Source of the DNA: Streptomyces camelliae | GTDB lineage: Bacteria; Actinomycetota; Actinomycetes; Streptomycetales; Streptomycetaceae | Assembly: GCF_027625935.1 (NCBI RefSeq) | Contig: NZ_CP115300.1 | Location: forward strand, 6,076,001-6,140,000 | DNA length: 64,000 bases | Reading direction: 5' to 3' | Part shown: positions 11,237 to 51,667 of the stretch, one piece after another | How positions within the stretch are numbered: the stretch's first letter is position 1 | Layout: each line of letters opens with the position of its first letter | Notes under the pieces: generated by a model | What the model saw: the letters and a program-made list of their open reading frames with translations, nothing else | The model's database searches: none | Told to the model about the DNA's origin: nothing | Program-made: the position numbers and the translations under genes

Positions 11237-12409
11237 ATGGCAGCAGGACGAGAGCGGCGCGCGAAGGCCGAGACGTTCACGGCCCGGTGGAAGATGCAGT
11301 GGCACCGGGTCCGCACCGGCCTGCGCAGAAGCGCCGTGGACTACTTCCGCGGCGACGGCTCCGACTGGATCGCCTTCGCCGGACTGCTGCTGACCATCCC
11401 CGTCCTCATGGGCATGACCCTGGTCGACTCGGTGTGGTGCTCCCCGGCCACCCTGGTGCTGCCGATCATCGCCGGCGGCCTGCTGCTGCGCCCGGCGAGC
11501 CTGCTCGGCCTGTACGCGGCCGGGGCCACGGCCCTGATCGTGGAGTCGGTACGCCTCGGCCCGTACACGGAAGGGCCGTCGCGCGTGACCCCCGGCGTGG
11601 TCCTCGTCGTGGCGGCCTGCGGCTTCTTCGGCCTGCTCACGGCCCAGTTCCGCAGCCGGGTCGGCGTGCCCTGGCGGCGCGGCGGCACCATGCTGTTCGA
11701 CCTGCGCGAGCGGATCCGGGTACAGAGCAAGCTGCCCAAACTGCCGCAGGGCTGGCACCAGGAGATGGCACTGCGGCCGGCCGGCGGCCAGTCCTTCTCC
11801 GGCGACTTCGTCGTCGCGGCCCGTACGAACGGCGGCCGCACCCTGGAGGTCGTGCTCACGGACGTCTCCGGCAAGGGCATGGACGCGGGCTCCCGCGCCC
11901 TGCTCCTGTCCGGCGCCTTCGGCGGCCTGCTCGGCTCCCTGCCCCCGCACGCCTTCCTCCCCGCCGCGAACGGCTACCTCCTGCGCCAGGACTGGGACGA
12001 GGGCTTCGCCACCTCCATCCACCTCGTCCTGGACCTGGACTCCGGGGACTACGAGCTGTACACCGCCGGCCATCCGCCGGGGCTCCAGCTCTCAGCCGGC
12101 AGCGGACGCTGGGAGGCGAAGGCCGCCGAGGGCCCGCTGCTCGGGGTGTACGACGGTGCCCAGTTCGATCCCGTGAAGGGCTCGCTGCGTCCGGGCGACG
12201 TCCTGATGCTCTTCACGGACGGCCTGGTGGAGACCTCCGACCGGGACATCGTCGAGGGCATAGACCGGCTCACCGGCGAGGCCGACCGCTATGTCGCCGG
12301 CGGCTTCCACGGCGCCGCCTGGCATCTGATCGAGGCGGTGGCGAAGGACGTCAACGACGACCGCGCCCTCCTCCTGATCTGCCGCCAGGCAACCGCCTCG
12401 CCCCGCTGA
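11237..12409 (+). CDS. Membrane PP2C/SpoIIE-family serine phosphatase
   Basis: 390 residues. Three to four hydrophobic segments at about residues 45-145 are followed by a SpoIIE-type PP2C domain (about 165-388). Metal-binding motifs are intact: SGDFVVAA, VLTDVSGKGMDAGSRA, LFTDGLVETSD and NDDRALLLI. It should dephosphorylate a protein on Ser/Thr, typically an anti-anti-sigma factor in a partner-switch. No STAS or anti-sigma gene is adjacent. A TAGGGT -10-like hexamer at 11222-11227 lies just upstream of ATG 11237, so the mRNA may be nearly leaderless. Confidence 0.88.
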   Translation: MAAGRERRAKAETFTARWKMQWHRVRTGLRRSAVDYFRGDGSDWIAFAGLLLTIPVLMGMTLVDSVWCSPATLVLPIIAGGLLLRPASLLGLYAAGATALIVESVRLGPYTEGPSRVTPGVVLVVAACGFFGLLTAQFRSRVGVPWRRGGTMLFDLRERIRVQSKLPKLPQGWHQEMALRPAGGQSFSGDFVVAARTNGGRTLEVVLTDVSGKGMDAGSRALLLSGAFGGLLGSLPPHAFLPAANGYLLRQDWDEGFATSIHLVLDLDSGDYELYTAGHPPGLQLSAGSGRWEAKAAEGPLLGVYDGAQFDPVKGSLRPGDVLMLFTDGLVETSDRDIVEGIDRLTGEADRYVAGGFHGAAWHLIEAVAKDVNDDRALLLICRQATASPR

Positions 12410-48749: not shown

Positions 48750-49030
48750 GGCAGCCGAGTCGGCCCCGCCGGTCTGGTGGTCTTCACCGTCGATGTCGCC
48801 GAGGGTTCCTCCGAGGCGTACGCGCAGCGGGTACGTCACGTCCTGTCGGCGGCGCTCTTCTTCGGGTCCCTTGAGCTGCTGTGGCTGCTGTGCACGGCCG
48901 GCGCCGCACGCGTCGAGGGGGCCGAGCGTCGGTTGCCCGTGGCGCCGGCGCCCGCCCTCCGCGCTGTCCGGCGACGGCGCTGCCGCCCCCGCGCTGTTGC
49001 GGAGGCAAGTGCCCGGCGTTGCAATCAAGT
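48750..49030 (+). other. Coding-like stretch without a start (possible gene remnant)
   Basis: One frame reads AGLVVFTVDVAEGSSEAY then RVRHVLSAALFFGSLELLWLLC with normal Streptomyces codon bias, but it has no usable start and degrades into Arg-rich sequence before its stop at 49034. It may be a remnant of a gene displaced when the fusion gene arrived. Confidence 0.3.
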
Positions 49031-51667
49031 GTGAGGCACTTTGGCGGCGCCGTGCCCGCCGACCGCCCCGCTCCCGGGACGGGGGCCGGCCGGAAGGGGC
49101 TCAAGAGCGACGCCCTGGGCATGTTCTCCTCGGTGGCCATGGGCCTCGCCTCCGCAGGCCCGGCGTACAGCATGGCCGCCACGCTGGGCGTCATCGTGGC
49201 GGGGGTCGGACTGCAGGCCCCGATCGTCACCATGCTGGCGTTCATCCCGATGCTCCTGGTCGCGTACGCCTTCCGGGAGTTGAACGCGAGCAACGCCGAC
49301 TGCGGGACCACCTTCACCTGGGCCACACGCGCCTTCGGACCGCGCGTCGGCTGGATGGGCGGCTGGGGCCTCATCGTCGCCGACATCGTCGTCATGGCGA
49401 ACCTCGCCCAGATCGCCGCTGCCTACGGCTTCCGGCTGGTGGGCCTGGACGGACTGGCGGAGAACCGGCTGTGGACGACCATGGCGGGCATCGTCTGGAT
49501 CGCCGTGCTGACCGCGATCTGTTACGTCGGCATCGAGTTCTCGGTGACCGTCCAGCGCTGGCTGCTCTGCCTGGAAGCGGTGATGCTGATCCTCTTCGCC
49601 GTCGCGGCGCTGGTCAGGGTCTACACCGACCCGCCCCCGACGGCGATCCATGTTTCCGCCTCCTGGTTCAACCCGTTCGAGGTGCCCTCGGCACGGGCCC
49701 TGACCTCGGGCATCCTCGCAGGGGTCTTCATCTACTGGGGCTGGGACACCGCGTTCTCGGTCAACGAGGAAACTGTCGACAGTACGCGCATCCCCGGGCG
49801 TGCCGCGGTCACGTCCACCGTGCTGCTCCTGGTCATCTACGGGCTGGTGTCCACTTCTGCACAGGCGTTCGCCGGCGTCGGCACCTCGGGTATCGGGCTC
49901 GGCAACGCGCACAACTCGGACGATGTGCTCTCCGGGCTGGGCGAGGCCGTGTTCGGGAGCGACAACACCGGGTTGCTCCTGTCGAGACTGCTGATCCTGA
50001 TGGTGCTGACCTCCGCGCTGGCCTCCGCCGAGACCACCATCCTGCCCCTCGCCAGGACCGTCTTCTCCATGGCGGTCCACAAGGCGCTCCCCTCCCGGTT
50101 CGCCCGGGTCCACCGCAGGTTTCTCACTCCGACCTGGGGCACGATCGGCATGGGAGCGGTCTCGGTCGCCGTGTTCGTCCTGCTGGCGTCGTACAGCCGG
50201 AACATCCTGGCCGACTCGATCGACTCGGTCGGTCTCGCGATCGCGTTCCAGTACGCAGTGACCGGCTTCGCCTGCCTCTGGTACCACCGCAAGATCCTCA
50301 CCCGCAGCGCCAAGGACCTGGTTTTCAAGGGCGTACTGCCGGGGCTCGGCGGGCTGATCATGGCCTTGCTGTTCCTCTACGCCGCCTTCGTCGTCTATGC
50401 GAACCCCGAGTACGGCACGACCGCCGTCGACCTCCCGCTGATCGGCAGGACGGGCGGGGTCACCGTCCTGGGCCTGGGCGCCCTGCTGATCGGTCTCCTG
50501 CTGATGCCACTGGTCACCCGTGGCCACACCGTGGCCCTCAAACTCCAGCGGAGCCTGCTTCCGCGCCACCTGCCGCAGCACGCCGCCGTCGACTCGGCGA
50601 GCCGCTACCTGCCCGCCGACAGCGGGTCCGGGGTGGGCGGCGACTGGTACGACGTCATTCCCCTGTCGGGAACCCGGGTCGGCCTCGTCGTCGGGGACGT
50701 GCTCGGTCACGGCATGCGTGCCGCGGCCACCATGGGACGCCTGTGTACGGGTGTGCGCGTGCTGGCCCGACTGGATCTGAGCCCGGACGAGCTGCTGTCC
50801 CGCCTGGCCGACCTGGTGGAGCAGACGCACGAGGCCGGAGCAGCCGGCCGAGGCCCGGGCCATCGGAAGCCGCGCGCCGACGCGGCCCTCGGCGTGAGCT
50901 GCCTGTACGCGGTGTACGACCCCGTCTCGGGGAAGTGCAGCCTCGCGCGGGCCGGGGAGCCCGTGCTGGCGGTCGTCCAGGCGCACACGGGTGTCGTCGA
51001 CTATCCGGAGCTGCCCGTCGGGCCGCCCCTGGGAATCGGCGGCCTGCCCTACCAGAGCATGGACCTGGACCTCGCGCCGGGCAGTCTCCTCGTCCTCTTC
51101 ACGGCCGGCCTTCTCCAGTCGGCCGACGACCGTGACGCCGGGCTCGCGCAGCTGTCCCGCGTCCTGGCCGGCGACCGGGCGTCTTTGGAGGCGCTGTGCG
51201 ACAGGGCGGTGACCACCCTGCTGCCCGGGGCGGTGGACGTGGACGCGACACTGCTCCTGGTCCGCACGCGGCTGCTCGACCGGAACCGGTTCGCCGAGTG
51301 GGCGGTCGTCCCGGACCCGGCGGCGGTGGCCGCCATCCGCACCGCCGCCGGCAAGCAGCTCGGTGACTGGGGGCTGGACGATCTGGCGTTCACCACGGAG
51401 CTCATCGTCAGCGAACTGGTCACCAACGCCATTCGCTACGTCGGCGGCCCGATCCAGGTACGCCTGATCCGCGACCGGAGCCTGATCTGCGAGGTCTCCG
51501 ACACCGGCCACACCTCGCCCAATCTGCGGTACGCCGCCAGCGATGAGGAGGGAGGACGGGGTTTGTTCATCATCGCCCAGATGACCCATCGCTGGGGTAC
51601 GCGCTACACCCACGCCGGCAAGACAATCTGGACCGAGCAGGACGTGCAGCAGAGCGGCGGCGCCTGA
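49031..51667 (+). CDS. Fusion protein: APC-family permease, SpoIIE/PP2C phosphatase and HATPase (RsbW-like) domains
   Basis: 878 residues in one uninterrupted frame. Residues ~25-490 form an APC amino-acid permease with about twelve helices (FSSVAMGLASAGPAYSMAATLG; FNPFEVPSARALTSGI; FIYWGWDTAFSVNEET). From residue ~497 (LKLQRSLLPRHLP) comes a Streptomyces-type SpoIIE phosphatase with D538 (GGDWYDV), D556 (VGDVLGHG) and D738. Residues ~755-878 are a histidine-kinase-like ATPase (ELIVSELVTNAIRY N-box; CEVSDTG; EEGGRGLFII). The normal DGxxE motif reads LFTAGLLQ: the metal Asp is Ala692. GTG 49031 lacks a clear ribosome site; TTG 49019 is an alternative. It could couple transport to partner-switch signalling. 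Confidence 0.85.
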   Translation: MRHFGGAVPADRPAPGTGAGRKGLKSDALGMFSSVAMGLASAGPAYSMAATLGVIVAGVGLQAPIVTMLAFIPMLLVAYAFRELNASNADCGTTFTWATRAFGPRVGWMGGWGLIVADIVVMANLAQIAAAYGFRLVGLDGLAENRLWTTMAGIVWIAVLTAICYVGIEFSVTVQRWLLCLEAVMLILFAVAALVRVYTDPPPTAIHVSASWFNPFEVPSARALTSGILAGVFIYWGWDTAFSVNEETVDSTRIPGRAAVTSTVLLLVIYGLVSTSAQAFAGVGTSGIGLGNAHNSDDVLSGLGEAVFGSDNTGLLLSRLLILMVLTSALASAETTILPLARTVFSMAVHKALPSRFARVHRRFLTPTWGTIGMGAVSVAVFVLLASYSRNILADSIDSVGLAIAFQYAVTGFACLWYHRKILTRSAKDLVFKGVLPGLGGLIMALLFLYAAFVVYANPEYGTTAVDLPLIGRTGGVTVLGLGALLIGLLLMPLVTRGHTVALKLQRSLLPRHLPQHAAVDSASRYLPADSGSGVGGDWYDVIPLSGTRVGLVVGDVLGHGMRAAATMGRLCTGVRVLARLDLSPDELLSRLADLVEQTHEAGAAGRGPGHRKPRADAALGVSCLYAVYDPVSGKCSLARAGEPVLAVVQAHTGVVDYPELPVGPPLGIGGLPYQSMDLDLAPGSLLVLFTAGLLQSADDRDAGLAQLSRVLAGDRASLEALCDRAVTTLLPGAVDVDATLLLVRTRLLDRNRFAEWAVVPDPAAVAAIRTAAGKQLGDWGLDDLAFTTELIVSELVTNAIRYVGGPIQVRLIRDRSLICEVSDTGHTSPNLRYAASDEEGGRGLFIIAQMTHRWGTRYTHAGKTIWTEQDVQQSGGA

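Follow-up and report, generated by a model that had tools for sequence, protein, structure and literature searches.

A permease-SpoIIE-HATPase fusion of Streptomyces as a predicted membrane transceptor

How does a membrane transporter come to share one polypeptide with the enzymes of a partner-switching pathway, and what might such a protein do? This question is raised by a gene of Streptomyces camelliae in a stretch of 64,000 nucleotides (assembly GCF_027625935.1, contig NZ_CP115300.1, positions 6,076,001 to 6,140,000), hereafter called the window, whose own numbering is used below. At 49031..51667 on the plus strand, to which all parts of the gene given below also belong, a single open frame of 878 residues and a stop codon encodes an APC-superfamily permease followed by a SpoIIE-type phosphatase domain and an RsbW-like HATPase domain. 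A first-pass annotation, made from the letters of this DNA, had read the frame in this way and proposed a transceptor, in which substrate binding would switch a sigma pathway. We found that the three-domain frame is confirmed by its Pfam domains and orthologues, and that a membrane transceptor is the most natural reading of its sequence and structural model: the permease would gate the RsbW-like kinase or anti-sigma domain through a pseudophosphatase (probability about 0.6), as suggested by the architecture and the predicted continuity of the helix that joins the halves.

Architecture and distribution of the fusion

In the Pfam scan, three domains scored above their cut-offs, namely AA_permease_2 at residues 29-460, SpoIIE at residues 547-746 (PF07228; 132.6 bits against a cut-off of 25), which marks the central part as a SpoIIE/PPM homolog, and HATPase_c_2 at residues 761-866 (42.9 bits against 27.4), which identifies an RsbW-like HATPase domain. 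The permease occupies residues 28-492 (49112..50506; PF13520/PF00324 and structural matches); in the model it shows the APC-superfamily fold, with 12 predicted membrane helices and helix 6 broken at residues 234-237. The SpoIIE/PP2C domain, a predicted pseudophosphatase by its PF07228 match and its alignment to SpoIIE, covers residues 520-748 (50588..51274), and the HATPase domain covers residues 755-870 (51293..51640), with intact N, G1, and G2 boxes as judged by Pfam and conserved residues. PAS and GAF input domains were not found in the fusion protein by the Pfam scan, so that it is not a PAS/GAF-SpoIIE-HATPase sensor of the OsaC kind; with E values up to 0.001 the scan returned SpoIIE, AA_permease, and HATPase families only, and no SLC5, STAC, or histidine kinase DHp domain. 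The start is the GTG at 49031, which is supported by 17 aligned close sequences (that of the window included) that are conserved around this codon and unrelated farther upstream.

Such an unusual architecture could by itself point to two genes joined in error during assembly or annotation, and the first-pass annotation had named this as one way in which its reading might fail, the other being homologs always encoded as two proteins with a stop near residue 495. We searched for the same domain order in other genomes and found it. In the genus search, where full length was defined as a match starting at or before residue 14 and ending at or after residue 872 and was counted from the listed rows, 28 of 392 genomes (the window's own counted) carried a full-length, single-frame fusion without stops; three of the 28 had two such places each (31 rows in all). 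Identity to the window fusion was 67-98% in this search, its own genome aside, and 66-98% over all orthologue searches. The family search gave the fusion in 25 of 297 genomes, four of them common to the genus search, and included two further genus codes (g13 and g14); in one additional family genome the fusion was interrupted by a contig end. A class-wide draw of 394 genomes contained five full-length fusion places, every one in the genus of the window. The named records comprised at least 80 loci, of which at least 34 (L065-L098) were fusions, L097 being partial; many of these come from the same strains as in the genus and family searches. The fusion of a same-species genome (L010 in G243) was core-identical to that in a record of Streptomyces sp. 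CoH27 (L074). Among plasmid records, none of the 60 matching records covered 80% of the query. Because the homologs are single-frame and the same full-length join recurs in many independently sequenced genomes, across three genus codes and among the named records of different laboratories, and because the host genome itself is assembled in 3 contigs (9.6 Mb), a joining error can be dismissed for practical purposes. On the sequence record, the fusion is retained in many Streptomycetaceae.

Three observations on single records belong here. In Streptomyces lilacinus (L113, 7998-10840) the fusion gene lies over two frames, either by a sequencing error or as a broken copy. Contig 1 of genome G308 carries two equal-scoring fusion copies about 120 kb from its opposite ends, as in a terminal inverted repeat. 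The fusion of a record named Streptosporangium nondiastaticum (L087) falls among Streptomyces sequences in the permease tree described below, and the strain is possibly misnamed.

Origin of the fusion

For phylogenetic analysis we started from 83 open-frame records (28 from the genus search, 21 from the family search, and 34 named-record loci). After removal of identical sequences and the partial L097, 60 distinct full-length proteins remained; L060 (at a contig end), L113 (two frames), and three second copies from the genus search, which had no locus, were outside the set. In the permease tree, built with 28 stand-alone relatives, the fusions formed one clade (SH-aLRT 100) that lay next to eight stand-alone permeases, of which three carry the name Kitasatospora. 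The output halves formed one clade as well (SH-aLRT 99) in a tree that included 40 soluble relatives, and this clade adjoined the soluble proteins L147-L149.

The soluble Streptomyces PAS-PAS-GAF-SpoIIE-HATPase proteins related to the output half are 62-68% identical to the fusion over approximately residues 495-875 and share with it the order of SpoIIE and HATPase and the entry helix, whereas PAS/GAF sensors stand where the fusion has its 12-helix permease. In four of them (L147, L150, L152, and L162) Pfam found PAS, GAF, SpoIIE, and HATPase, with PAS above the cut-off in all four and the GAF match of L150 just below it, and no open reading frame (ORF) with more than one hydrophobic window was present at the 14 soluble-relative loci inspected. 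OsaC of S. coelicolor, described with GAF and PAS domains in PMC12143880, is likened to these proteins by that description and not by sequence. Directly after membrane helix 12, the fusion carries the junction motif TRGHTVALKLQRSLLP, which corresponds to TREHAAALTLQRSLLP of the PAS-GAF relatives; its counterpart at the GAF exit of the soluble relatives follows the motif TREHxAALxLQRSLLP. Since this motif is common to both kinds of protein, the permease took the place of PAS/GAF at the phosphatase entry helix, and since each half of the 60 fusions forms one clade, a single fusion event is the simplest history. By that history, the PAS/GAF sensors of one soluble SpoIIE-HATPase protein would have given way, a single time, to a stand-alone Streptomycetaceae permease.

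We also considered a two-gene precursor. In two Streptacidiphilus loci (L102, 7968-11489, and L103, 7956-11499) a stand-alone permease gene precedes a SpoIIE gene on the same strand, at a spacing of about 190 bases. The neighbor has no match above 150 bits to the output half of the fusion, and Pfam assigned PAS and SpoIIE to that of L102 with no HATPase, and we did not take the pair as the precursor. The arrangement may represent this coupling in a two-gene form.

Metal site, HATPase boxes, and permease residues

In SpoIIE, Asp628, Asp746, and Asp795 are reported to hold manganese (PMC3517971; PMC8080068), and a role of Asp610 is described in PMC3517971. We aligned a profile of the soluble domain to SpoIIE (3t91), taking SpoIIE numbers from chain positions with an offset of 585, which gives D628 at the first aligned residue. 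By this profile alignment residues 692 and 737 are the counterparts of D746 and D795; D628 was paired with D556 by the D-x-x-G-H/N-G motif, a pair that the HMMER alignment does not make. The window protein reads D, A, and V at the three positions: D556 is present (50696..50698), A692 stands in the DG motif (51104..51106), and V737 in the DD motif (51239..51241), so that two of the three manganese ligands are gone and the all-Asp triad expected of an active SpoIIE-type phosphatase is absent. D538 (50642..50644), found in 60 of 60 fusions, is what we take to be the equivalent of SpoIIE D610, by motif. The first-pass annotation had noticed the Asp-to-Ala exchange at 692 and suspected a lost or altered activity, which the alignment supports, and its statement that D538 and D556 remain holds; it had missed V737 as a second lost ligand, and D738, which it listed as a remaining metal residue, is the neighbor of the ligand position in the SpoIIE alignment and not itself a ligand. 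This correction strengthens the original observation.

Among the 60 fusions, residue 556 is D in 49, E in 6, and N in 5; residue 692 is D in 37, G in 15, A in 5, and E in 3; and residue 737 is D in 26, V in 18, E in 15, and N in 1. An all-Asp triad is kept by 16 of 60 fusions; among the soluble relatives the figure is 32 of 40, and among readable paralogues in the host genome 45 of 50. The last figure comes from 59 host SpoIIE rows (including the pieces of one broken gene), 50 of them readable at all three sites; among these 50, two ligands are missing only in the fusion and in one other protein (S, D, A). The least numbers of changes (Asp or not) on the permease tree are 3, 9, and 2 at residues 556, 692, and 737, respectively, indicating that ligand changes recur. 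In the same host rows we looked for other transporter-SpoIIE fusions; in a survey of this genome alone, in which the ORFs of 30 loci were trimmed about 1.5 kb upstream, the fusion was the sole row of 59 with more than four hydrophobic windows (it has 9). An apparently broken SpoIIE-HATPase paralogue of the host lies over three frames at 8339743-8340820 of G000 contig 1 (in L250).

The HATPase domain is uniform. Every one of the 60 fusions has the ATP-binding residues E795, N799, D824, G842, and G844, which agrees with the first-pass view that the boxes are intact, and E795, N799, and D824 are also present in 40 of 40 soluble relatives. A simple counting method applied to 14 pairs gave dN/dS < 1 in 41 of 42 domain comparisons, with the proviso that the very high GC content makes dS unreliable; for the PP2C domain, 13 pairs gave values of 0.09-0.52 and the remaining pair 0.94. 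Judged by these codon comparisons, the degenerate PP2C domain is not drifting freely. A decaying gene without present function might explain why phosphatase ligands vary within the clade and why the S. lilacinus record is split over two frames, but the frame is open in 83 fusion records (chosen as open-frame loci, with L060 and L113 left out), the HATPase residues are invariant, and nearly all domain comparisons fall below 1; we regard decay as very improbable.

The same low ratios (below 1 in 14 of 14 pairs for the PP2C domain) would also be expected if the phosphatase were still active with an altered metal site, using D538, D556, and a backbone carbonyl of a second metal site, or another metal. 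D538, G693, and D738 occur in 60 of 60 fusions, D556 is present in the window protein, and all three ligand Asp residues are kept in 16 of 60 fusions, all of which would suit this explanation. However, Ala and Val stand at two ligand positions of the window protein and their side chains are unable to bind metal, and the three carboxylates hold the only manganese seen in SpoIIE according to PMC3517971. An active enzyme is thus rather unlikely, and a pseudophosphatase remains the preferred description.

For the permease, structural matches of the model, in the PDB, were BasC, ApcT, and KimA; the fold-match listings were filled mostly by this half, and we draw no conclusion from the absence of other folds. 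NCBIfam gave general permease models only, all below cut-off, and assigned no substrate family; the fold makes an amino acid or an amine the probable ligand. On a Streptacidiphilus contig (L112, 1512-3191), a flavin amine oxidase gene comes after that of a permease relative, which hints weakly at an amine as substrate. We counted 179 positions as conserved among the stand-alone permeases (in 27 or more of 28); 133 of them are also conserved among the fusions (in 58 or more of 60), and the exceptions do not include the helix-6 stretch YWGWD. Residues 43, 118, 242, 333, and 407 are invariant or nearly so in the 28 stand-alone permeases and changed mostly in the Streptomyces clade of the window; Y407 is present in 26 of 26 fusions with D737 and lost in 30 of 34 without it.

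The conserved positions, YWGWD included, could also belong to a working transporter that is gated by its cytoplasmic SpoIIE-HATPase part through ATP, phosphorylation, or a bound regulator. KimA, whose fold the permease matches, is an APC-fold transporter solved with bound c-di-AMP, which reportedly regulates it. Such a reversed flow fits poorly with the output tree, by which the C-terminal part derives from a soluble regulator and not from a transporter tail, or with the change of several nearly invariant permease sites in the clade of the window, and we consider it unlikely, if a little less so than an active phosphatase.

Proposed signaling and genomic context

In the proposed transceptor, ligand binding or the alternating-access cycle would move membrane helix 12. 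Residues 476-509 (50456..50557) are predicted to form one continuous helix (block pLDDT 69-85), in which helix 12 runs straight into the entry or switch helix of the PP2C domain and would pass the movement on. Switch helix and coiled-coil linker are described as transmitting signals in SpoIIE, RsbU, and RssB (PMC5468089; PMC12143880), PP2C switch helices as being moved by regulatory domains (PMC5468089; PMC8080068), and coiled-coil linkers as relaying signals from varied sensor domains to the PP2C switch, with sensor modules proposed to be exchangeable (PMC12143880). The pseudophosphatase would then relay the movement or dimerize, and the HATPase activity would thereby be altered, whether as an anti-sigma factor or as a kinase of STAS-type anti-anti-sigma proteins. 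As a net result, the permease would control phosphorylation or sequestration, and the chain would have no phosphatase of its own; the opposing activity would come from a separate SpoIIE protein, and genes for several such proteins lie near orthologues, while family members with an intact Asp triad could perform both reactions. More tentatively, and with odds that we place somewhat short of even, the protein may have become a dedicated receptor by one domain swap at the switch helix, after which the permease sites and the metal site changed in the clade of the window, leaving a dead phosphatase as the moving part of a permease-gated RsbW-like kinase or anti-sigma factor that a separate SpoIIE phosphatase opposes.

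We examined the genomic context of the fusions for such partners. In 485 kb around the 34 named fusion loci, 16 of 308 other ORFs matched a SpoIIE profile, these being spread over 12 of the loci, compared with 57 Pfam SpoIIE matches in the 9.6 Mb of the host genome; the densities are approximately 33 and six per Mb, although the two counts use different profiles. As a control, 14 stand-alone permease loci contained two matches among 169 other ORFs (215 kb), namely those of L102 and L103. Of the 64 immediate neighbors of the 34 fusion loci, taken from ORFs of a simple gene finder, 50 were scanned: four were SpoIIE, one STAS, and one a sigma factor, and 44 were unrelated or had no family. SpoIIE is the next gene in L067 (6337-7434), L083 (10817-11824), L081 (5608-7746), and L082 (11105-12883). 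In one Streptomyces (L076, 10795-11211) the gene after the fusion, on the same strand, encodes a STAS protein, and an ECF-type sigma-70 family gene with regions 2 and 4 lies just upstream on the same strand in L078 (6936-7871); by their sequence families these two are candidate partners. As a lead, the SpoIIE, STAS, and sigma neighbors fit a partner-switching context and a separate phosphatase, and they do not form a conserved operon. In the window, the eight scanned neighbors of the fusion were a DyP peroxidase, a cyclophilin, a DUF2344 protein, and five proteins without a family. A second SpoIIE protein of the window (11237-12409 (+), 390 residues) lies at a distance of 37 kb; it has about three hydrophobic windows, and its DG motif contains Asp. 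Upstream of the start, at 48993..49026 (+), alignment of the fusion loci revealed a conserved two-box element, GCTGTTGC-N15-GCGTTGCAATC, a candidate promoter or ribosome-binding region that is common to the Streptomyces clade and weaker in several other fusions. It did not point to a regulon, as the pattern occurs once in the host genome, at the fusion gene alone.

Several points weigh against the transceptor and its dead phosphatase. If Glu, which could still bind metal, is counted as a ligand, 25 of 60 fusions keep the triad. In eight of the 40 soluble relatives, among them L147-L149, the nearest to the fusions, 692 is the one ligand position altered, to Asn, and by sequence the erosion at this position may predate the fusion. 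The association between residues 407 and 737 tracks one clade and is not independent evidence, and both trees are quick maximum-likelihood trees with SH-aLRT support and no bootstrap. The continuity of helix 476-509 comes from a single-chain prediction with pLDDT of 69-85. As to partners, the eight scanned neighbors in the window include none, and the SpoIIE profile found no match between 40000 and 60000 besides the fusion itself. Among the 49 named loci and the window no conserved partner gene was found, neighbor clusters being shared by at most 12 of them; we read these clusters mostly as location markers (c1, an uncharacterized hydrophobic protein; c2, an Rne-like protein). The loci are not independent of one another, and SpoIIE genes may cluster in these genomes, which could account for their higher density near orthologues.

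To our knowledge, known transporter-receptor fusions signal through histidine kinases. The first-pass annotation knew of no SpoIIE-HATPase protein with a transporter as input; the genomes contain a whole family of them, although a literature search at the level of titles and abstracts, with subscription papers mostly outside its scope, found no APC or other transporter described as fused to SpoIIE. The word "transporter" is absent from the main text of PMC12143880 and PMC12088040. The best PDB match of the soluble half was 3ke6, Rv1364c of Mycobacterium tuberculosis, whose RsbU and RsbW domains likewise place a phosphatase and an RsbW-like kinase in one chain; according to PMC12143880 it has in addition a PAS sensor and an anti-anti-sigma domain, unlike the fusion. 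CbrA of Pseudomonas (SLC5-STAC-PAS-histidine kinase), described as a rare transceptor, also unites a transporter and a signaling enzyme in one polypeptide (PMC13022988), although with an SLC5 fold, a STAC linker, and a histidine kinase output, whereas the fusion has an APC permease, no linker domain, and an output of the partner-switching type. In the ammonium transporter-histidine kinase Ks-Amt5, the transporter serves as sensor and is joined without a PAS, HAMP, or STAC linker, as in the fusion, and is described as having lost transport (PMC5764959); it differs in its Amt fold, trimeric state, and histidine kinase. For yeast Ssy1, a TM12 hinge has been proposed to act in signaling (PMC12958826), a likeness to the proposed role of helix 12, but Ssy1 works through Ptr3 and Ssy5 and has no fused SpoIIE-HATPase output. 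RssB is reported to signal through the switch of a PP2C-related domain without phosphatase activity (PMC5468089), as we propose for the fusion; it is, however, a soluble response regulator and an adaptor for ClpXP.

If the proposed reading is true, the fusion would be a transporter-receptor that feeds a Ser/Thr partner-switching (anti-sigma) pathway. It would also be a natural case of sensor-module exchange at the entry helix of the PP2C domain, the module being an entire transporter, in line with the toolkit proposed in PMC12143880. Within the family, some members keep all three metal ligands, some lack one, and some lack two, and the change from phosphatase to relay would thus be testable by comparing natural relatives.

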